Shown one piece after another: positions 51,112 through 63,473 of a DNA stretch of 64,000 nucleotides. The stretch comes from Deltaproteobacteria bacterium (GTDB lineage: Bacteria > Myxococcota_A > Polyangia > Polyangiales > Polyangiaceae): positions 1 to 64,000 of the forward strand of contig VGRJ01000014.1 in assembly GCA_016875405.1 (NCBI GenBank). The letters run 5' to 3'. The notes under the pieces were generated by a model. That model had not been told where the DNA came from. It was given only the letters and a program-made list of their open reading frames with translations, and did not search any database. Both the position numbers and the translations under genes were made by a program. Position 1 is the stretch's first letter. Every line of letters starts with the position of its first letter.

Positions 51112-51987
51112 TCAGCCCTTGACGGCACCCGCCGTGAGCCCCGCGACGAGGTGCCGCTGCACCCAGTAGAAGATCGCCATCACCGGCGTCGAGACGACGA
51201 GCGCCCCCGCCGCGAACGCGGGCCAGTTCGCGTCGTGCTCGCCGATGTAGCGCTGCAGGACGACCGGCAAGGTGAAGAGCTCTTCCTTTCCGAGGAGCGT
51301 CGCCGCGAGGATGAACTCGTTGTACGCGCTCATGAACGCGAAGAGCGACGTCACCGCGATCGCGGGGCGCGCCGCGGGCAGCACGACGCGCAGGAAAGCC
51401 TCGAAGCGCGTCGCCCCGTCCACCATCGCCGCCTCCTCGAGCTCGAGCGGGATCGCCTCAAAGGCCGCGCGAAGCTGGAAGATCGCGAACGGAACGGACG
51501 TGGTGGCGTAGCAGAGGACGAGCCCCGTCCGCGAGTCGAGCAGCCCGAGGACCTCGAGGAGAACGTAGAGCGGAATGGCGCCCGCGACGGCCGGAAACAT
51601 CTGCGTCGCAAGGAGCGCGTTCGTGCCAGAGCGCTTGCCCACGAACTCGAAGCGCGCGAGGGCGTACGCAGCGGGCACCGCGATGAGGACCCCGACGAGG
51701 GCCGCGGACGACGAGACGACGAGCGAGTTCACGATCTGTCTCCCGAAGAGCCAGACCTCGCGCCCGTCGGAGCTCGTGCGCGAGGCGCCGACGACCTCGA
51801 CGAGGTGCTCGAGCGTCGGCTGCTCGGGCAACGGCAAGAGCCTCGGCTCCGGGGTCTGTTGCCGCGAGAACGCGAGCGAGACCACCCAGAGGACCGGATA
51901 GAGCGCGAACGCCGTCGCAGCGAGCAAGACCGCGTGCACCGCGAGCGACTCTGCAAGAGAAGGAGGCTCACGCGCGGGGTCGCTCAC
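51112..51987 (-). CDS. malG: Maltose/maltodextrin ABC transporter permease (MalG-like)
   Basis: EAA loop LEEAAMVDGATRFEAFLRVVLPAARPAI; GTG start in GTGA overlap with upstream gene. Confidence 0.88.
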   Translation of the reverse strand: MSDPAREPPSLAESLAVHAVLLAATAFALYPVLWVVSLAFSRQQTPEPRLLPLPEQPTLEHLVEVVGASRTSSDGREVWLFGRQIVNSLVVSSSAALVGVLIAVPAAYALARFEFVGKRSGTNALLATQMFPAVAGAIPLYVLLEVLGLLDSRTGLVLCYATTSVPFAIFQLRAAFEAIPLELEEAAMVDGATRFEAFLRVVLPAARPAIAVTSLFAFMSAYNEFILAATLLGKEELFTLPVVLQRYIGEHDANWPAFAAGALVVSTPVMAIFYWVQRHLVAGLTAGAVKG

Positions 51988-54137
51988 GTCGCCGCCCTCC
52001 GACCGAAGCGCGCACCGAGCCGCGTCACTCCGAAGAGCAGCGCGAAGATGAGGACCGAATAGGCAGCGGCGTAGCCGTACTGCGCTTGGCGCGTGAACGC
52101 CCAGCGATAGGCCTCGCTCACGAGGATGTCGGTCTGTCCGTCGGGCTCGCCCCCGGACACGAGGAAGACGACGTTGAACATGTTGAACGTCCAGACGGCG
52201 CCGAGAGCGACCGACGGAATCATCGACGGTCGCACGATCGGAACGACGATGCGCGTGAAGCGCTGCCAACGGGTCGCGCCGTCGACCTCTGCAGCCTCGA
52301 GCACCTCGCGAGGGAGCGACGTCAGAGCGGCGATCGTCACCACCATCATGAAAGGGAACCCCAGCCAGACGTTGGTGGTGACGTTGGCAGCGAACGCCGT
52401 CGCGAAGCGCGCAAACCAATCGATCGGCTCGAGGTCGACGCCGAGGGCGCGGAGCTTCGTAGTGAGCGCCGTGACCGCGCCGAACTGGCGATGAAACATG
52501 CCCCGCCAGGCGAGGGCCGTGACGTAGCTCGGCACTGCCCACGGCACGATGAGGAGGACGCGGTAGGCCGCGCGCATGCGAAGGACGGGGCGGGAGAGGA
52601 GGACGCCGAGCGTCGCGCCAATGGTCACGTGGAGGCCGACGTTCAGCACCGTCCACGCGACCGTGACGGCGAGGACGAGGTAGAACGAGCCGGTCGCGAG
52701 GAGCGGACCGCCGCGCGCCGTGAGGATGTCGATGAAATTGGCGGTGCCCACGTACACGGTCTCGCCCGGGCGCCCGGCGGTGAGTGAGATCGCGGCCCCG
52801 GCGACGAGCGGCGCGAAGACGAGCAGGCCGAGCGCGAGCACGGCGTGGATGAGATAGCGGTACGCAGGGAGCGACGCGACGACCTCGGCCCGAAAGGAGG
52901 CGTCGCGCGAACGCCTGACCAGGGTGAGCGCCCCGGCGAGCAGCGCGAGGCCGATGAGCACGAGCAGCGGGCGACGCGAGGCCTCGGGCGGCGGCGGACG
53001 GCGCACGTCGTCGAAACGTCGCTTCGCTTCCTCGAGCGCAGCGCGCGGCTCCGCGGAGCCGTTCAACACCTTGCGGATCGCCTTCTCCGAAGGCTCCCAC
53101 ACGGCGCGCATCGCGGCGCTCGTCGGCATCGGGTCGGCCTCGCGAGCCGCCTCGGCAAAGCCGCGCACGACCGGATCGTCGGGTAGCTCCACGTCGGTAC
53201 GCGCCGACACGACGTGGGCGATTCGCATCCGCGTCGCGGCCGCCTCACGCGACGCGAGCAGCGCCGCGAGCGCGCGGGCCTCCGGTCGCGAAGCGCCCCG
53301 CGGCGATGCCATCACCGCCTCGACCGTGAGCAGCGGCCGCATGCGACCTCCGGTGACGCGGACGCGAGGCAGCGGCGCGACGGCGTACTGCACCGCCGCG
53401 TCGCCGAGATCTCCCGCGAGCCACGGGCCACTCACGGCGAACGCCGCGCGCCCCGAGCGAAAGAGCTGCGTCACGAGCGCCCCGTCGGCGTTGCCCGGGA
53501 CCTTCCCGGAGCGCTGGAGCTCACGGGCGAGGACGAGCGAACGCTCGGCCCCCTGACCGACGAAGCCGAAGCGCTCGTCGGGCCAGAGGAGCCGCCCCCC
53601 GAACGCGGCGAGGAACGGCGCGTGGTAATAAGCGCTCCGGCTCTCGTAGGCGAGGAGCACCTCACCGCTCGCGAGCGGTCGCACGAGGACGGCCTCGAGA
53701 TCCTCGAGGTCGGTCGGCACCCGTCGCGCGAGCGCGCGGTTCACGTAGAGCGCGACGCACTTCTGAGAGAGCGGCACCGCGAGTTGACGCCCCTCAATCT
53801 CTACCGCCCGGAGCGCGGAGGGCGCATACCCTACGCGCTCGACCTGCAGCTCCGCGACGAGCCCCTGACGCAGGTAGTCCCCGAGGCGCTCGTGCGCGTC
53901 GATGAAGAGGTCCGGACCCTCGCCGTGAGGAATGGCAGCGGCGAGCTTCGTCGCGAACGCGTCGGCCGGCACCGCGAGAAGCTCGACCTCGATCCCGGAG
54001 GTGCGGACGATCTCCTCCAGCGCCCGGGCCTCGGCACCTCTGTAGGCGTGCCAGAGGCGCACGGGCTCCGCGCTCGCCGCGCGGGTCGACGCGAGCGAGG
54101 CGACGAGCACGAGCAGCGCCGCGAGCGCCCTCAACAT
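51984..54137 (-). CDS. Fusion of extracellular solute-binding protein (MalE-like) with ABC permease (MalF-like)
   Basis: Signal peptide, SBP1-type domain (RLWHAYRGAEARALEEIV...GPDLFIDAHERLGDYL), then TMs with EAA loop LEAAEVDGATRWQRFTRIVVPIVRPSM in one uninterrupted frame. Confidence 0.92.
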   Translation of the reverse strand: MLRALAALLVLVASLASTRAASAEPVRLWHAYRGAEARALEEIVRTSGIEVELLAVPADAFATKLAAAIPHGEGPDLFIDAHERLGDYLRQGLVAELQVERVGYAPSALRAVEIEGRQLAVPLSQKCVALYVNRALARRVPTDLEDLEAVLVRPLASGEVLLAYESRSAYYHAPFLAAFGGRLLWPDERFGFVGQGAERSLVLARELQRSGKVPGNADGALVTQLFRSGRAAFAVSGPWLAGDLGDAAVQYAVAPLPRVRVTGGRMRPLLTVEAVMASPRGASRPEARALAALLASREAAATRMRIAHVVSARTDVELPDDPVVRGFAEAAREADPMPTSAAMRAVWEPSEKAIRKVLNGSAEPRAALEEAKRRFDDVRRPPPPEASRRPLLVLIGLALLAGALTLVRRSRDASFRAEVVASLPAYRYLIHAVLALGLLVFAPLVAGAAISLTAGRPGETVYVGTANFIDILTARGGPLLATGSFYLVLAVTVAWTVLNVGLHVTIGATLGVLLSRPVLRMRAAYRVLLIVPWAVPSYVTALAWRGMFHRQFGAVTALTTKLRALGVDLEPIDWFARFATAFAANVTTNVWLGFPFMMVVTIAALTSLPREVLEAAEVDGATRWQRFTRIVVPIVRPSMIPSVALGAVWTFNMFNVVFLVSGGEPDGQTDILVSEAYRWAFTRQAQYGYAAAYSVLIFALLFGVTRLGARFGRRAAT

Positions 54138-55219
54138 CGCAGCGCGAGCCCCGTCTCGGCATCGAAGAGGTGCACGCGCGAGGGCTCCACCGCGAGGCGG
54201 CGAGCCTCGCCGACGCGGACGTCCACGGTGGGCTCGAGGCGAACGACGAACGGCGCCCCGCCGATCGACGCATGCGCGTAAGTCTCGCCGCCGAGCTTCT
54301 CCGCGAACTCGAAGCGCAGCTCGACCGTGGCCTGACCGCTCGCCTCGTCGACGAGCGCAACGTCGTGCGGACGCACGCCGACGATGACGCGACGACCGGA
54401 GACGAGCCCATCGAACTCGGCCGCGCCCAACGTGAAGCGCGCGCCGGCCGAGTCTGCGATCCAGGCGGCGCCGTCCCGAACGAGCGTCGCCTCGAGGAAA
54501 TTCATGGGCGGGCTGCCGAGGAAGCCCGCGACGAAACGGCTCCTCGGCCGGTCGTAGATCTCGAGCGGCGCGCCCGACTGCTCGACCTTCCCGCGGTGCA
54601 AGACGAACATCACATCGGCGAGCGTCATCGCTTCGACCTGATCGTGCGTGACGTAAATGCTGGTGGTGCCGAGCGCCTCATGCAGGCGACGGATCTCGAC
54701 GCGCACCTGACCGCGCAGCGCCGCATCGAGGTTCGAGAGCGGCTCGTCGAATAGGAAGAGGCCCGGTCGCCGCACGATCGCGCGCCCCATCGCGACGCGC
54801 TGTCGCTGCCCGCCCGAGAGCGCCTTCGGCATTCGGTCGAGGAGGGCGTCGAGCCCGAGCATGCGGCTCGCCTCGGCCACCCGTGACGCGATCTCGGCGG
54901 GCGGCACCTTCCTCAGCGTGAGGCCGAAGGCGAGGTTGTCGCGGACGGTGAGGTGCGGATAGAGCGCGTACGACTGAAACACCATCGCGATGTCGCGCTC
55001 GCGCGGCTCGAGTCGAGTCACGTCGCGCTCGCCGAACCGGATGGTCCCCGAGCTCGGCCGCTCGAGCCCGGCGAGCACACGCAGGAGCGTCGACTTGCCG
55101 CAACCGCTCGGACCGACGAGCACCGCGAAGGCCCCCTCGGGGATCGCGAGGGCGATCTCGTCTAAGATCGTGTTCGACCCGAAGCGCTTCGTGAGACGCT
55201 CGACCGCGACCGAGGCCAT
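54131..55219 (-). CDS. malK: Maltose/maltodextrin ABC transporter ATP-binding protein (MalK/UgpC-like)
   Basis: GPSGCGKSTLLR, LSGGQRQRVAMGRAIVR, LFDEPLSNLDAALR, C-terminal TOBE-like regulatory region. Confidence 0.92.
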   Translation of the reverse strand: MASVAVERLTKRFGSNTILDEIALAIPEGAFAVLVGPSGCGKSTLLRVLAGLERPSSGTIRFGERDVTRLEPRERDIAMVFQSYALYPHLTVRDNLAFGLTLRKVPPAEIASRVAEASRMLGLDALLDRMPKALSGGQRQRVAMGRAIVRRPGLFLFDEPLSNLDAALRGQVRVEIRRLHEALGTTSIYVTHDQVEAMTLADVMFVLHRGKVEQSGAPLEIYDRPRSRFVAGFLGSPPMNFLEATLVRDGAAWIADSAGARFTLGAAEFDGLVSGRRVIVGVRPHDVALVDEASGQATVELRFEFAEKLGGETYAHASIGGAPFVVRLEPTVDVRVGEARRLAVEPSRVHLFDAETGLALRC

Positions 55220-55234: not shown

Positions 55235-57082
55235 TCAGAGCTCCGACTGGGGGACGAGCAGCGCGCCCGTCCTTGGAGGGAGCTCGATGAGCAGCGTGCC
55301 CTGCCCGCTCACGGTGTACTTGGTGCCGGGTGGCGAGCTCGGGCTGCCGAGGACGTCGACGAGCACCGTGCCAGGGTTGACCCCGACCTTCATCGGCGCG
55401 CCGCCGAAGACGGGGGCCGACACGTGCTCCCGGTTCGTGTTCATGACGACGAGCGCATAGGCGTCTCCCGCGTCGCCGCCCGAGCGCTCGAAGGCGAAGA
55501 TGCCCGCATCTTGCTCCGCGCCCGTCCGCGCCGAAGCCCACACCACGCGGGCGTCTCCGCGCCGCAGCGCGACGTACTTCGCCCTCAAGCGGGCAAGCGC
55601 CTGCGTGTAGCGGAACGTGTCCCCGGTCGTCGCGTAGCCGGTGAGCCACATGTCCTCGCGGTTCGCCGGGTCGTTGCCGCCACGGAGGTCCTGCTCCGTG
55701 CCGTAGTAGATGCAGGGCAGCCCGTCCTGGCTCATGACGAAGAGGAGCGCGAGCCGGAGCCCGGCGGCGTCGCCTTCGAAGAGGAAGCGCGGGACGTCGT
55801 GGTTGTCGATGAAGTTCACCAGCGTCTTCACCGGCGGGAGGCCGGTGCCGAGCTCGTTGGCGGACGTGCCGTAGTGCTTCGTCCGGTCGGACCAAAGTCG
55901 CTCGATGCGATCGGTCGAGAGGCTGTCTCGGAAGACGTCGCGGATGACTTGGTAATACTGGGGGAAGTGGAACACCCCGTCGAGCTGGTCACCGGTGATG
56001 CCGAGCCCATCCTCGACACACTCGTTCTCACGCGCGAGCGTCTCGGCGCTCGGGAGCTCGCTCTTTGTGTACGCGCCGACGAGCTCCTCGCGACCGTCGA
56101 ACGCCTCGCCGAACATGAAGAAGTTCGTCTTGCCTTGGCGAGCGAGACGCTGCCTGACCTTCTGCGCGAAGTAGCGCCAGAACTCGCGGTCGACGTGCTT
56201 GATGGTGTCGATGCGGAACCCATCGACGTCGGTGAGCTCGACCCAGCGAGCATATACGTCGACCATCGCCTGCTTCACCTCGCAGCGCGTCGTGTCGAGG
56301 TCCTTCAGACCACCCGGAAAGTCGCCGTGGAGGAGCTGGTCCGGGTCCTCGAAACTCACGGTCCGACCGCGACGGTTGTACATCTCCGGGCGCTGCAAGA
56401 CGACCGGGACGGGGGGCATGTGGTTCGACGCCGGGTCGTGGTTGAAGATCACCGGTGCGGGACCGGCCTCACCGAGCGACGTCTCGGCCTGGATGCCACG
56501 CGGATCGAAGTCGGGGTCGTACTCGTTGATGTGCGTGACCTCGGACTGCTCACCGCTTCCGCGCACCGACTCGTCAGGGTTGCCGTTCAGGTTGATGTCG
56601 TAGAAGAAGAGCTGCCCGACGTGGTTCGTCACGACGTCGAGGATCACCGCGATGCCGCGATCATGAGCGCTTCGCACGAGCGAGCGGAGCGCCATGAGGT
56701 CGCCGTAGTGGATGTTGGTCGTAGTGAAATCCTGGGGCCAGTAGCCGTGGTAGCCGTCGACGCTCGCGTCGGTCTCGACGTTGCGATAGACTGGCGAGAT
56801 CCACAGCGCGCCGACGCCGAGCTCGGACAGGTAGTCGAGCTTGCCCTCGAGGCCGGCCCAGTCGCCGCCGTGCCAGCGCGCCTGCGACGACATGTCGACG
56901 TTGAAGTTGTTGCCGGCGTCCCCGTCGGCGAAGCGATCGACGAGCACCTGATAGATGACGCGATCGCGCCAGTCCGCGACGTTCGTCTCGAGTCGGACCG
57001 GCGCGTCGAGCCCGTCGAACGACATGCAGCCGGTCGTCATCGCGAGGAGCGCCGCTCCGAGAAAACCTATCGCGCGTGTCAT
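55235..57082 (-). CDS. Alpha-amylase family (GH13) lipoprotein
   Basis: Lipobox MTTGCMSF; VIYQVLVDRFADGD, VILDVVTNHVGQ, DVDGFRIDTIKHV, FMFGEAFDG, FIDNHDVPRFL. Confidence 0.93.
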   Translation of the reverse strand: MTRAIGFLGAALLAMTTGCMSFDGLDAPVRLETNVADWRDRVIYQVLVDRFADGDAGNNFNVDMSSQARWHGGDWAGLEGKLDYLSELGVGALWISPVYRNVETDASVDGYHGYWPQDFTTTNIHYGDLMALRSLVRSAHDRGIAVILDVVTNHVGQLFFYDINLNGNPDESVRGSGEQSEVTHINEYDPDFDPRGIQAETSLGEAGPAPVIFNHDPASNHMPPVPVVLQRPEMYNRRGRTVSFEDPDQLLHGDFPGGLKDLDTTRCEVKQAMVDVYARWVELTDVDGFRIDTIKHVDREFWRYFAQKVRQRLARQGKTNFFMFGEAFDGREELVGAYTKSELPSAETLARENECVEDGLGITGDQLDGVFHFPQYYQVIRDVFRDSLSTDRIERLWSDRTKHYGTSANELGTGLPPVKTLVNFIDNHDVPRFLFEGDAAGLRLALLFVMSQDGLPCIYYGTEQDLRGGNDPANREDMWLTGYATTGDTFRYTQALARLRAKYVALRRGDARVVWASARTGAEQDAGIFAFERSGGDAGDAYALVVMNTNREHVSAPVFGGAPMKVGVNPGTVLVDVLGSPSSPPGTKYTVSGQGTLLIELPPRTGALLVPQSEL

Positions 57083-58794
57083 TGCAGCGTGCCTCCGTAG
57101 CTCGAAGAGCCGAACCACCACTCAGCGCCAACTCCGAAGAAATGCTCTACCGCGCGCGTCCTGAATGGATCGTCGACGGGATAGAGGGCGCGCGCCCCCG
57201 CGTCGCGGAAGCCCGCAGAGTAGATGAGCCACATCATCGGTCGGCTGAACGAGCCGCGGCCCGCGGGCGAGATGAACGGCATCACCGCGAAGCGCGGCAT
57301 CGTCGCGACGATCGGGGCCGGCGAGCCGCCCTCCTCCGGGACGACGAGCGTACCGCGCTGCTGGAGCTGATAGCCGCCCTCGACGCCGATGCCCAACCAG
57401 TCACGAAACCACACCTGCGGCCGGACGATGACGCTGCCCTCGTCGACGTCGCTCGCGTCGAGCGCGCGGCTCGCATTGCGGAAGGACCGGAGGTAGCCGC
57501 CGGCCATCACCGCGAAGCGACCGAGCTCGTAGTTGCCGCCGAAGGCGACCTGTAGCTCGCGCGCGCCGCTCGTCGTGCGATCAACGCCGAGGCTCGAGGG
57601 GGTTGCGAACTCGCCGTAGGCCGCGAGCCCGCCCGCGTACCGAACGAACACGTTGAGGTGGCTGTTGCGTTCGCCCGTCCAGGCGCCGAGCTGGCCACCG
57701 ACCACAAAGCCAGCCTCGGCCGGAACAGCCTCGAAGACTCCGTCACGCGCCGTCTCGCGCTCGCCCGCCGGGAGCCGATGCGCCTCGCCGTACGCGACGA
57801 GCTTCATACCGACCTTCTCGCCGAATCGAATCGGCTGCTCGAGCCGTGCGCTCCCGATCCAGCGCTGTCGATCGAGCAGGTCGATGGTGGCCGCGCCGAA
57901 CTGATTGAGCGGCGACGGGCGCGACGCGCGCTGTTTGTAGAACGGGCTGTCGGGCTGGCCGAAGCCGATGTGGAGCTGGGCGATGGTGTGGGTCGGCGCT
58001 TCGAAGCGGAGCCCGGCGCCCATCGTGTTGAGGTTGTCGAGCGGCCAGAAGTTGAGGAGGTAGATGTCGTCGCCGCGGTACATGCGCGAGCCGGCCCACG
58101 CCGAGAGCCCGCGGTGCCCGAGGTTCATCGCCTCGAGGTAGAGGTTGCGCACCGCTACCTGGGCGTCGAACACGCCGTTGTGGTGAAAGATCGAGTTGCC
58201 AATCGCGAGCGTCGAGACGATGCGCGTGTCGATGCCGGTCGCCTCCCAGTGGTCCTCGCGGCGCAGCTCGAGCTCGACGTAGTTGACCGCGTCGACGCGA
58301 CTGCCGTAGGCCACGATGTCGCTGTCGCGGGCGGGGCGACCAGCCGCATCGCTCGCCGCGAGCACGCGCCCGTACGAGCCGAAGACGAAGGTCCCGCGAT
58401 GGCCGTTCGTGTTGGTCGGGACGACGAGGCCGGCACGCGCGAGCGTAGGAGCAGGCTCGGACGGCGGTGGGCTCACCGGCTCACGCGGCTCGACCTTCGG
58501 CGGGGCATCGGCCATCGGCGTGCGCTTGTCGCTCGGTGCGGTGCTCGAGCGCTCCGCGAGAGGAGGCTCGTCCTCACGTCGCGACGCGTCCTCGCGCGAG
58601 GCGCGCTGGGTCGCCGCCTTTGGCTCGGCGCTCTCGTCGCCGTGCTCGCGACGGGTCGTCCGCTCCGCCGTCGTGGGCTCCTCGGTCGCGTCGCGTCGAG
58701 GTCGACGAGGCGCGGGCGTCACGTCATCGGAGCGCGCCGACGACGCGGCGAAGGTCGCGGTGAGGAAGACAGTCGAGGTGAGGAGGAAACGCAC
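57079..58794 (-). CDS. lamB: LamB-type maltoporin
   Basis: Signal peptide VRFLLTSTVFLTATFAASSARS; FVFGSYGRVLAASD, WAGSRMYRGDDIYLLNFWPLDNLN, VRPQVWFRDWLGIGVEGGYQ, GSFSRPMMWLIY, C-terminal GVGAEWWFGSSSYGG. Confidence 0.75.
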   Translation of the reverse strand: MRFLLTSTVFLTATFAASSARSDDVTPAPRRPRRDATEEPTTAERTTRREHGDESAEPKAATQRASREDASRREDEPPLAERSSTAPSDKRTPMADAPPKVEPREPVSPPPSEPAPTLARAGLVVPTNTNGHRGTFVFGSYGRVLAASDAAGRPARDSDIVAYGSRVDAVNYVELELRREDHWEATGIDTRIVSTLAIGNSIFHHNGVFDAQVAVRNLYLEAMNLGHRGLSAWAGSRMYRGDDIYLLNFWPLDNLNTMGAGLRFEAPTHTIAQLHIGFGQPDSPFYKQRASRPSPLNQFGAATIDLLDRQRWIGSARLEQPIRFGEKVGMKLVAYGEAHRLPAGERETARDGVFEAVPAEAGFVVGGQLGAWTGERNSHLNVFVRYAGGLAAYGEFATPSSLGVDRTTSGARELQVAFGGNYELGRFAVMAGGYLRSFRNASRALDASDVDEGSVIVRPQVWFRDWLGIGVEGGYQLQQRGTLVVPEEGGSPAPIVATMPRFAVMPFISPAGRGSFSRPMMWLIYSAGFRDAGARALYPVDDPFRTRAVEHFFGVGAEWWFGSSSYGGTLQ

Positions 58795-58843
58795 GGTTGG
58801 GTCTCGGGGAAGGTACACCAAAACGCGCCCGGGAACCTGCAGC

Positions 58844-59763
58844 ATGACGACATCGCGCCTCGTCTTCACGATCCATTATCACCGGCCCTTTGGGAACCTG
58901 GATGAGGTGTTCGAAGCGGCCGTCGAATACTGCTACCGGCCGACGGTCGCGCTGCTCGCAGACGACCCCGACATCCTTACCGCGCTCCACGTCTCGGGTG
59001 CCGCTGCTCGACTGGCTCGAGACGCGCCCCGCCGACGTCCTCGAGGAGCTCGAGAAGCTCGTCGCGCGCGGGCAGGTCGAGCTCCTCGGCGGGGCCGAGC
59101 AGGAGCCGGTGCTCGCCGTGCTCCCGGAGCGAGATGGACGTGCCCAGCCGACCTTGCACGCCGCTCGATGCGAGGCCCTCTTCGGCGCGCAGCCCACGAG
59201 GATGTGGCTCGCGGAGCGCGTGGGGGAGCCTGCGCTCGCCCGCACGATTGGCGAGGCCGGGACTGCGCGCGACGTCCTCGAGGTGGACCATGCGCGTCGC
59301 TGGGCTCGGCTCGTATTCGAGGGCTCGGGCCTCAGGCTCGACAAACGCCGGTCGCTCGACGGCTCGCTCGAGTGCGCGTACCGCCTGGAGTCGCGCGACG
59401 GGACGAGAGCGCTGCGGCTCGCGAGCTCGATCGACCTGACGCTCCTCGCGCCGGACGAGCTCGGCGGCCGTCTCATCGAGGTCACGTGCGAGGCGGGGCC
59501 TGGGCCGCTCGCGCCGGGCGCGCGCGCCACGCCTCGAGGGGGTGACGTCCGTCCGCGTCGCGTGCGAGGCTCTCGGCATCGACGTGACCCTCCGCCCCTC
59601 TCCCCCGTGCGAACTCTGGCGCCTCCCGATCGAGACGGTGACGCGAAGCGAGCGAGGCTTCGAGGCCATTCACCGGGGGACGTCGCTCGTGTTCGTGTGG
59701 GACGCGGCGCTCGAGCCGGCGCGACCGCTCGAGGTGACGCTCGCGTTGACGGTGTCCTCATGA
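58844..59763 (+). pseudogene. Frameshifted, internally deleted GH57 alpha-amylase/4-alpha-glucanotransferase remnant
   Basis: Frame 2: MTTSRLVFTIHYHRPFGNLDEVFEAAVEYCYRPTVALLADDPDILTALHVSG; frame 3: PLLDWLETRPADVLEELEKLVARGQVELLGGAEQEPVLAVLPERDGRAQ...MWLAERVGEPALARTIGEAG; frame 1: VACEALGIDVTLRPSPPCELWRLPIETVTRSERGFEAIHRGTSLVFVW (DUF1926-like end). Confidence 0.78.
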
Positions 59764-60383
59764 GACGGTCGCTGCTCTTCGCGCCTGGCGCAGGTGCCCC
59801 CTCGACCTCCGAGTGGATGCGCGCGTGGGCGGCTCGACTCGGCGCGCTCGGGGACGTGCGCACGCTCGACTACCCGTACATGCACGCTGGTCGACGTCGG
59901 CCCGATCGCCTCCCGGTCCTCGTCGCTGCGCACCGCGACGCAGCCGACGCGTCAGCCTCGTGCGATGGGCCGCTCGTGTTCGTCGGCAAATCGATGGGCG
60001 GTCGAGTGGGCTGCCATGTCGCCCTTGAGCGTGCCCCGAGCGCGCTCGTGTGCTTTGGCTATCCGCTGCGCTCGCCGGCCGGGAAGCTCCGAGACGAGGT
60101 GTTGCTCGGGCTCGCCACTCCGATCCTCTTCGTGCAAGGAACGCGCGATCCGCTGTGCCCGCTCGACGTGCTCGACCGAGTGCGCGGGCGCATGACCGCG
60201 ACGAGCGAGCTCGTCGTCGTCGACGAGGGTGACCACTCGCTCCTCGTGACGAAGCGCTGGCTCGGTCGGCACGAGAAGACACAAAGCGACATCGACGCCG
60301 CGATCCTCGAGGCCGTCGAGGGCTTCCTCGAGACCTACGCCGCCCCTCACGCGGTCGAACGCGCAATCACCGCCGGAGGGTAA
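59760..60383 (+). CDS. KANL3/Tex30-like alpha/beta hydrolase
   Basis: LLFAPGAGAPSTSEWM...LVFVGKSMGGRVGCHVA...LFVQGTRDPLCP...VVVDEGDHSLLV. Confidence 0.85.
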   Translation: MRRSLLFAPGAGAPSTSEWMRAWAARLGALGDVRTLDYPYMHAGRRRPDRLPVLVAAHRDAADASASCDGPLVFVGKSMGGRVGCHVALERAPSALVCFGYPLRSPAGKLRDEVLLGLATPILFVQGTRDPLCPLDVLDRVRGRMTATSELVVVDEGDHSLLVTKRWLGRHEKTQSDIDAAILEAVEGFLETYAAPHAVERAITAGG

Positions 60384-61712: not shown

Positions 61713-61802
61713 CAGGGCACCGCGCGACGCGGAAGGGCGGCTCGCCGACCACCAAGCGTGCTCGGAGTTCCCACGAACGGCTGGCTTCGGTATCGTGCTG
61801 CC

Positions 61803-63473
61803 ATGCGCGTTGGCTTCATCGGTCTCACAATTCTTGCCGCCTGTTCGGCCGACCTCGAGCCTCAAGCGCCCGAGCGCGTGGGCACCGTCGAAGAGGCGCT
61901 CACCGTCGATGCGGCGGTGAACGGCGGCTGCTCGACCAAGATCGTCGAAGGCCTGAGCAAGCAGATCGTGGCGCAAGCCGAGTGCATCGCCATGGGGGCG
62001 TTCAGCAACGTGCCGAAGCGCCCCAACGTCACCTTCGGGAGCGCGGTGCTGCCCTACATGCAGGAGCCTGGGCGGGACGCGCTGCTCGCCGCGCTCGACG
62101 CGAGCCCAGGCACGAAGATGACCATCAACTCGATGCTCCGCACCGTGGCGCAGCAGTACCTGCTCTACCGGTGGTACCTCGGCGCCAAGTGCGGCATCGC
62201 GCTCGCGGCCAAACCCGGCAGCTCGAATCACGAGACCGGACTCGCGATCGACATCCAGGAGTACTCGACGTGGCGACCGAAGCTCGAAGCGAAAGGCCTC
62301 GCGTGGCTCGGGTCGAACGATCCGGTGCACTTTGACTACGAAGGCCCGGGAGCCGCGAACCAATCGGGCGTTGGCGTGAAGGCCTTTCAGCAGCTGTGGA
62401 ACCTGAACCATCCCGAGGATCCGATCGCCGAGGATGGCGATTACGGGCCGCAGACCGAAGCGCGGCTGAAGCAATCGCCGGCCGAAGGTTTCGCGACGGT
62501 CCCGAGCGAGTGCGGCGGCACGGGCGGCGGTGGCGGTGGCGGCGGCGGCTCGACGCCGGGGGGTGAGGTCGAGCTCGCCGTGGCGTTGCTCGATGCGCCG
62601 GACGCCTTCGCGGACGGCCCCTCGAAGGGCGTCCCGGATCTCGTGGTCGGCAAGCGCTACACGCTCGCGATCACGGTCATGAATGGCACCGACACCGATC
62701 TCGAGACCTCGACGGTGACCGTCACGCTCCCGGCCGCGCTCTCGAGCAGCGGGGCTGGGACGATGTCGCTCTCGATCGGCGCGCTCGCCGCGGGTACGTC
62801 GACCACGCTCGAGGCGCGGGTCGACGCGCTCGCATACTCGGTGGTCGAAGTCGCGCCGGTGTCGATCGAGGCCACCCTCGGCGACGTCACCGCGACGCGC
62901 TCGGTCGACGTGTACAGCGATCGCCGCTGGGACTTCGATGGCGAGCGGCTCGAGGGATGGACCTCGGCGCAGATGCTCGCGGTCACGAGCACCGCCGAGA
63001 TGGGCGAGGCGGCCGCCGATGGCGAGCTCGTCCTCACCGGCGCCGCGGCCGCGCTGGCCGCCGAATCGCCTGCGATCAACATCACCACGGCCGGGCTCGG
63101 GGATCTCGTCTTACGCGCCCGTCGTTCAGGGGATCCCGACGGAGCCGCCGTGCTCGATCTCGACGGGACCTCGCTGCCGCTCGAGCTCCCGGCCGACGGA
63201 GAGCTTCACGAGATCGTGATCCCCGTGGCCTCGCTCCCAGCGACGATCACGCGCGTGCGCTTCGTGCCATTCCAGGGCGGAGCCGCGAAGACCGCCACGG
63301 CAGCGCTGGCGTCGCTCGTCATCGGCGATCGTCGAGGCGTCCGCGACGGAGGGGACAACGGCTGCGGCTGCGAGGTCGCACCGGGGGAGCGCGACGCCGA
63401 CGAGCGCTCGCTCGCGTGGCCGGCGATGCTCCTCGGAGTGACGGTCGCCGCGCGTCGGCGGAGGCGCGGCTAG
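61803..63473 (+). CDS. VanY-like D-Ala-D-Ala carboxypeptidase with peptidoglycan-binding-like segment and MYXO-CTERM-like tail
   Basis: TINSMLRTVAQQYLLYRWY, GSSNHETGLAIDIQEY, DPVHFDY; GVKAFQQLWNLNHPEDPIAEDGDYGPQTEARL; tail NGCGCEVAPGERDADERSLAWPAMLLGVTVAARRRRRG. Confidence 0.88.
   Translation: MRVGFIGLTILAACSADLEPQAPERVGTVEEALTVDAAVNGGCSTKIVEGLSKQIVAQAECIAMGAFSNVPKRPNVTFGSAVLPYMQEPGRDALLAALDASPGTKMTINSMLRTVAQQYLLYRWYLGAKCGIALAAKPGSSNHETGLAIDIQEYSTWRPKLEAKGLAWLGSNDPVHFDYEGPGAANQSGVGVKAFQQLWNLNHPEDPIAEDGDYGPQTEARLKQSPAEGFATVPSECGGTGGGGGGGGGSTPGGEVELAVALLDAPDAFADGPSKGVPDLVVGKRYTLAITVMNGTDTDLETSTVTVTLPAALSSSGAGTMSLSIGALAAGTSTTLEARVDALAYSVVEVAPVSIEATLGDVTATRSVDVYSDRRWDFDGERLEGWTSAQMLAVTSTAEMGEAAADGELVLTGAAAALAAESPAINITTAGLGDLVLRARRSGDPDGAAVLDLDGTSLPLELPADGELHEIVIPVASLPATITRVRFVPFQGGAAKTATAALASLVIGDRRGVRDGGDNGCGCEVAPGERDADERSLAWPAMLLGVTVAARRRRRG

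Follow-up and report, generated by a model that had tools for sequence, protein, structure and literature searches.

Results and Discussion

A split GH57 gene beside an intact maltodextrin cluster

The window, by which we mean the whole 64,000-nucleotide stretch analysed, is positions 1-64000 of contig C14 in genome G000, a 5.0 Mb assembly in 218 contigs that is 99% complete. On its reverse strand lie, all intact, a MalE-MalF type fusion of binding protein and permease (51984-54137, Pfam and NCBIfam), a MalK-type ABC ATPase (54131-55219, NCBIfam UgpC/MalK-type models), a GH13 amylase (55235-57121, PF00128 at 172 bits, 72-75% identity within the genus), and a divergently oriented LamB-type porin (57079-58824, PF02264 at 81 bits), which is syntenic in G001, G002, G003, G004, G062, G086, and G098. 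The MalE-like and MalF-like parts are fused in one 717-aa frame that aligns nearly end to end in G004, G001, and G003. On the forward strand, positions 58844-59762 hold the remnant of a GH57 4-alpha-glucanotransferase, split over three successive frames, and its TGA overlaps the ATG (59760) of an intact alpha/beta hydrolase (59760-60383, PF20408, 69% identity to the neighbor in G004). We note that a 497-aa open frame (58890-60383, forward strand) runs through the middle GH57 piece, the third piece out of frame, and then the hydrolase; automatic annotation of this joined frame may add a false N-terminus to the hydrolase.

The three pieces lie where an earlier note on this DNA had placed them. 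The N-terminal piece (58844-58999; 52 codons in the first frame from the ATG at 58844) is 55-60% identical to the starts of the orthologues in G001 and G004. The middle piece (59001 to about 59531) lies one frame on and the last piece a further frame on, and DNA alignment against G001 and G004 gives a net gain of one base at each join. The first shift falls within TCGGGTGCCG (58994-59003), which agrees with the site near 59000 named earlier, but the extra base, previously taken to be a G, may be either G or T. The second shift had been placed at about 59520-59535 and is found within CGAGGGGGTG (about 59530-59537), in a run of five G. Up to the point where it is interrupted, the middle piece (59001-59261) is 57% identical to the G004 protein, keeps the motif of the nucleophile Glu (WLAERV), and matches the GH57 domain PF03065 over profile positions 79-166 with 47 bits. 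There, at 59261/59262, the reading jumps from GEPALARTIGEAG directly to TARDVLEVD, and alignment with four intact orthologues identifies the jump as a loss of about 382 codons (about 1.15 kb) that keeps the frame. The C-terminal-domain piece that follows (59262-59531) is 38-49% identical to G004 and G001, and the C-terminal piece with the stop codon (59536-59762; 56-59% identity to G004 and G001) matches PF09095, the alpha-amylase/glucanotransferase C-terminal domain, at positions 220-283 with 46 bits. Both Pfam scores exceed the curated cut-offs, which excludes chance similarity. The GH57 domain is recognizable over about its first half only (to profile position 166 of 291); its second half, which holds the catalytic Asp, is missing, as are PF09094 in full and the greater part of PF09095.

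Two genomes of the same genus, G004 (L038) and G001 (L037), carry an intact 689-aa GH57 frame at the same locus, counted from the ATG equivalent to 58844, and the two proteins are 83% identical to each other. In both genomes the frame is flanked by the genes for the LamB-type porin, GH13 amylase, and MalK and, at its other end, by the alpha/beta hydrolase gene; these neighbors are shared with the window on both sides, and all surviving pieces of the remnant align with these orthologues. Three genomes of another genus in the same family (G062, G086, and G098) also have GH57 beside the same porin and amylase, the G086 copy being cut by a contig end. The intact proteins have the domains PF03065, PF09094, and PF09095, and their only PDB match is the 4-alpha-glucanotransferase of T. 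litoralis (1k1w, E 4e-100). Among named genomes, the closest GH57 genes belong to metagenome assemblies assigned to Polyangia, Polyangiaceae, and Myxococcales, which points to an uncultured myxobacterium as the source of G000. The earlier claim that GH57 was lost beside intact transport and amylase genes is thus upheld by the syntenic orthologues in G001 and G004 and by neighbors in the window that are full-length and single-frame.

Extent of damage and relaxed constraint

Catalysis by GH57 enzymes needs a Glu on strand 4 and an Asp on strand 7 (PMC6037648). The intact proteins carry the catalytic Asp region as GDDxEKFG, which lies within the part deleted from the window copy; the Glu motif is still there, as WLAERVG, with an invariant Trp changed to Gly. 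Even if the frames are ignored, a product of the remnant could not act as a GH57 transferase, because the catalytic Asp and the middle domain, PF09094, are lost. Nor does the window hold a single frame with PF03065, PF09094, and PF09095: there are two shifts, PF09094 is absent, and the other two domains are partial. Of 133 columns that are invariant in four intact proteins, 26 differ in the remnant; for the neighboring amylase, MalK, porin, and MalE-MalF of G000 taken together, the corresponding count is 45 of 794 (Fisher p 8e-7). The branch of the remnant measures 1.25 changes per site, which is 5-7 times the 0.18-0.25 obtained for the amylase, MalK, and porin of this lineage. By these counts, constraint on the remnant is relaxed relative to its working neighbors. 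Codon-position G+C was not informative for the remnant. On these sequence grounds we read the interval as a genuine GH57 4-alpha-glucanotransferase pseudogene.

It could be argued that an intact gene was collapsed in the metagenome assembly and that two bases were added, since the genome is fragmented into 218 contigs and the second shift sits in a run of five G. However, the neighboring genes stay in single frames over several kb, base-call errors do not account for the many invariant sites that carry a substitution (among them the Trp to Gly change in the nucleophile motif), and the separate GH77 gene described below fits a real loss. We consider such an artefact extremely improbable.

A second alternative, to which we assign the lowest probability, is that the pieces are still made as a short, noncatalytic GH57-derived protein, possibly via programmed frame shifting. 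Many GH57-like proteins in the phylum lack the catalytic residues, such groups have been described (PMC6037648), and the pieces of the remnant are free of stop codons. The known residue-lacking proteins are full-length, however, and the short product would need two shifts at different sites from a remnant that evolves several times faster than its neighbors. A short conserved GH57-like family, the case that the earlier note had set against its own reading, was rejected: no relative with the truncated architecture was found in any other genome searched, and constraint is relaxed.

The age of the pseudogene is a separate matter. The loss itself had been described as recent, and here only the loss stands; the recency is doubtful on the sequence measures, as the long branch (1.25 against 0.18-0.25 changes per site) suggests that decay has occupied a good part of the history of the lineage and did not begin very recently. 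Although the pieces contain no stop codon, this says little about recency: the window has 70% G+C, and stops are also few in some noncoding frames of neighboring genes.

An intact GH77 transferase in the same genome

The reading of the locus as loss alone proved incomplete, since G000 carries an intact GH77 4-alpha-glucanotransferase gene (malQ) at C28:25049-26521 and, among its relatives, the presence of one enzyme type goes with the absence of the other. The 535-aa protein matches PF02446 with 406 bits over positions 1-460 of 465 and the malQ model TIGR00217 with 248 bits against a cut-off of 206, and the catalytic Asp, Glu, and Asp are conserved in alignment with the Thermus enzyme. The gene lies outside the maltodextrin cluster, between lpd and an RNase HIII-like gene. 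These two genes adjoin without malQ in all four congeners (G001, G002, G003, and G004), so malQ looks gained on the G000 lineage; the congeners appear to be draft metagenome-type assemblies, 67-98% complete, in which some absences could be gaps, and the GH57-bearing G001 and G004 are 97-98% complete with the lpd site assembled. The contig belongs to the genus, as its tetranucleotide composition matches the window (r 0.99) and its lpd is 84-85% identical to those of G004 and G001. The nearest relatives of malQ in the family are 57-60% identical and none lies beside lpd. We infer a horizontal origin of malQ. An ancestral malQ with several losses is less likely, given that none of the four congeners has malQ at this site and that its nearest relatives lie away from lpd.

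A second GH57 gene of G000 (C8, 813 aa) was considered as a discriminating backup and set aside, as it is of a different subfamily, the DUF3536 type; similar frames of 811-816 aa occur in G001, G002, and G004 regardless of transferase state.

A probable separate exchange in the sister branch

No GH57 transferase was found in G002 or G003, and no GH57 vestige rises above noise at the locus in either genome. The hydrolase gene of G002 sits immediately next to the porin gene. The place beside the porin is taken in G003 by a VanY-like gene that resembles the one at window positions 61758-63473, which indicates that a larger block was lost; in the G003 stretch L060 8746-12235, the block of GH57, hydrolase, the gene at 60367, and a haem-oxygenase-like gene is absent. 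Both genomes carry GH77 in a shared context, which by our reading of the sequence is next to DUF1501-type genes. The GH77 of G000 and those of G002 and G003 belong to two deep clades with 31-33% identity, and a tree of four neighboring genes gives ((G000,(G001,G004)),(G002,G003)) with 100% support for both groups. The simplest history would have GH57 ancestral, followed by two independent exchanges for two different GH77s. This suggests that the exchange happened at least twice in the genus.

Distribution of the two enzymes across relatives

None of the five genomes with GH57 intact (G001, G004, G062, G086, and G098) has GH77, which is present in G000, G002, and G003. Across the 98 genomes of the family, GH77 occurs in 0 of 5 with an intact GH57 transferase versus 88 of 93 others (Fisher p 4e-6). 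Five family genomes (G009, G010, G020, G045, and G081) have neither enzyme; these may do without the reaction or use a third enzyme for it.

The same pattern holds in the phylum, where we compared 239 genomes, each at least 90% complete, using GH57 matches at E <= 1e-60. GH77 is present in 173 of the 239 overall and in 0 of 11 with a complete GH57 transferase versus 173 of 228 others (p 4e-7); these Fisher p values, like that for the family, ignore relatedness, and independent contrasts are few, two of them in the genus. Families f1, f49, and f55 hold both states, and not one of the 239 genomes keeps both complete transferases. The 11 complete enzymes come from nine families, score at least 335 bits, and all have the catalytic Glu and Asp in aligned motifs (ten aligned together, G062 separately). 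A further 22 weaker matches at 208-280 bits are all in genomes with GH77, and the 11 of these 22 that were inspected lack the Glu/Asp pair in the aligned motifs (e.g., L214-L224). We note that the split between complete and weaker matches was drawn after the scores were seen; the score gap and the catalytic residues support it.

These distributions bear on a further alternative, in which maltodextrin disproportionation is no longer useful to the G000 lineage, GH57 was simply lost, and the presence of malQ is a coincidence. The five family genomes without either enzyme indicate that the reaction can be dispensable, but the porin, amylase, and transporter in the window stay intact, malQ is an intact, lineage-specific insertion, and the exclusion spans nine families. 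We regard simple loss as highly unlikely.

Proposed history

Our preferred reading, to which we give a probability of roughly 0.85, is non-orthologous displacement of the GH57 enzyme by GH77, with the displaced gene decaying here and the same displacement having taken place independently in the sister branch. An unrelated gene of the same predicted activity is present where the original is lost, and its site is empty in four congeners. In this proposal, the ancestral GH57 enzyme would have been a partner of the maltodextrin porin, amylase, and ABC transporter encoded next to it. The G000 lineage would then have acquired a GH77 gene, the malQ seen today between lpd and the RNase HIII-like gene, and this gain would have made the GH57 gene redundant and relaxed selection on it. 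The GH57 gene would subsequently have lost about 1.15 kb including the catalytic Asp, taken two frame shifts, and gathered substitutions. In the sister branch, another GH77 would have taken the place of GH57 in a separate event. Intact syntenic GH57, the pseudogene, malQ with its empty site, the exclusion, and the relaxed constraint are states read directly from the genomes compared. The order of gain then decay, and redundancy as the cause, are what we infer from them, and the 4-alpha-glucanotransferase activity of both enzymes is predicted by homology, to 1k1w and to GH77 structures, respectively.

A broader conjecture, which we think unlikely, is that GH57 and GH77 transferases are mutually disfavored in the phylum, such that gaining one drives loss of the other because their product patterns differ (PMC9582752). 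If so, the exchange would recur, and decaying intermediates like the G000 remnant could be caught.

Non-orthologous displacement is usually inferred from presence-absence tables. In this genus, the displaced gene decaying on its original site, the intact orthologue of sister species, the replacement in the same genome, and the site that relatives have empty are visible together, and the sister branch carries another replacement. Intact, decaying, and cleanly lost states of GH57 can all be dated and tested within a single genus. The displacement reading also guards against an annotation error: a species apparently lacking the glucanotransferase of its maltodextrin cluster probably retains the function.

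Comparison with known systems

GH57 and GH77 4-alpha-glucanotransferases have a common reaction, separate ancestry, and unlike exact product patterns (PMC9582752), so an exchange between them need not be neutral. The characterized GH57 enzymes are mainly from hyperthermophiles (PMC9582752). The orthologues in G001 and G004 match the Thermococcus litoralis enzyme TLGT (1k1w) in domain content and in possessing the catalytic Glu and Asp, and the remnant aligns piecewise with these orthologues. Unlike TLGT, the window copy is out of frame and has lost both the middle domain and the region around the catalytic Asp, and the genomes that carry GH57 here are Polyangiaceae-type metagenome genomes. The G000 copy of the GH77 amylomaltase MalQ is intact with full Pfam coverage; it is the predicted replacement, of the same activity class and not homologous to GH57. 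It differs in that malQ of G000 is not in the maltodextrin cluster and that two GH77 clades replaced GH57 within one genus.

As a kind of event, non-orthologous displacement is known. Our searches, made in open-access literature, turned up no account of GH77 displacing GH57 in myxobacteria, although this does not prove the case new. Among described systems, the bacterial phosphoglycerate mutases come closest: two unrelated enzymes for one reaction alternate within genera, with gains, losses, and occasional pseudogenes (PMC2964296). Some genomes keep both mutases, whereas 0 of 239 genomes here keep both complete transferases. In contrast to the mutases, the displaced copy here can still be seen where it stood ancestrally, and sister species keep the orthologue intact.
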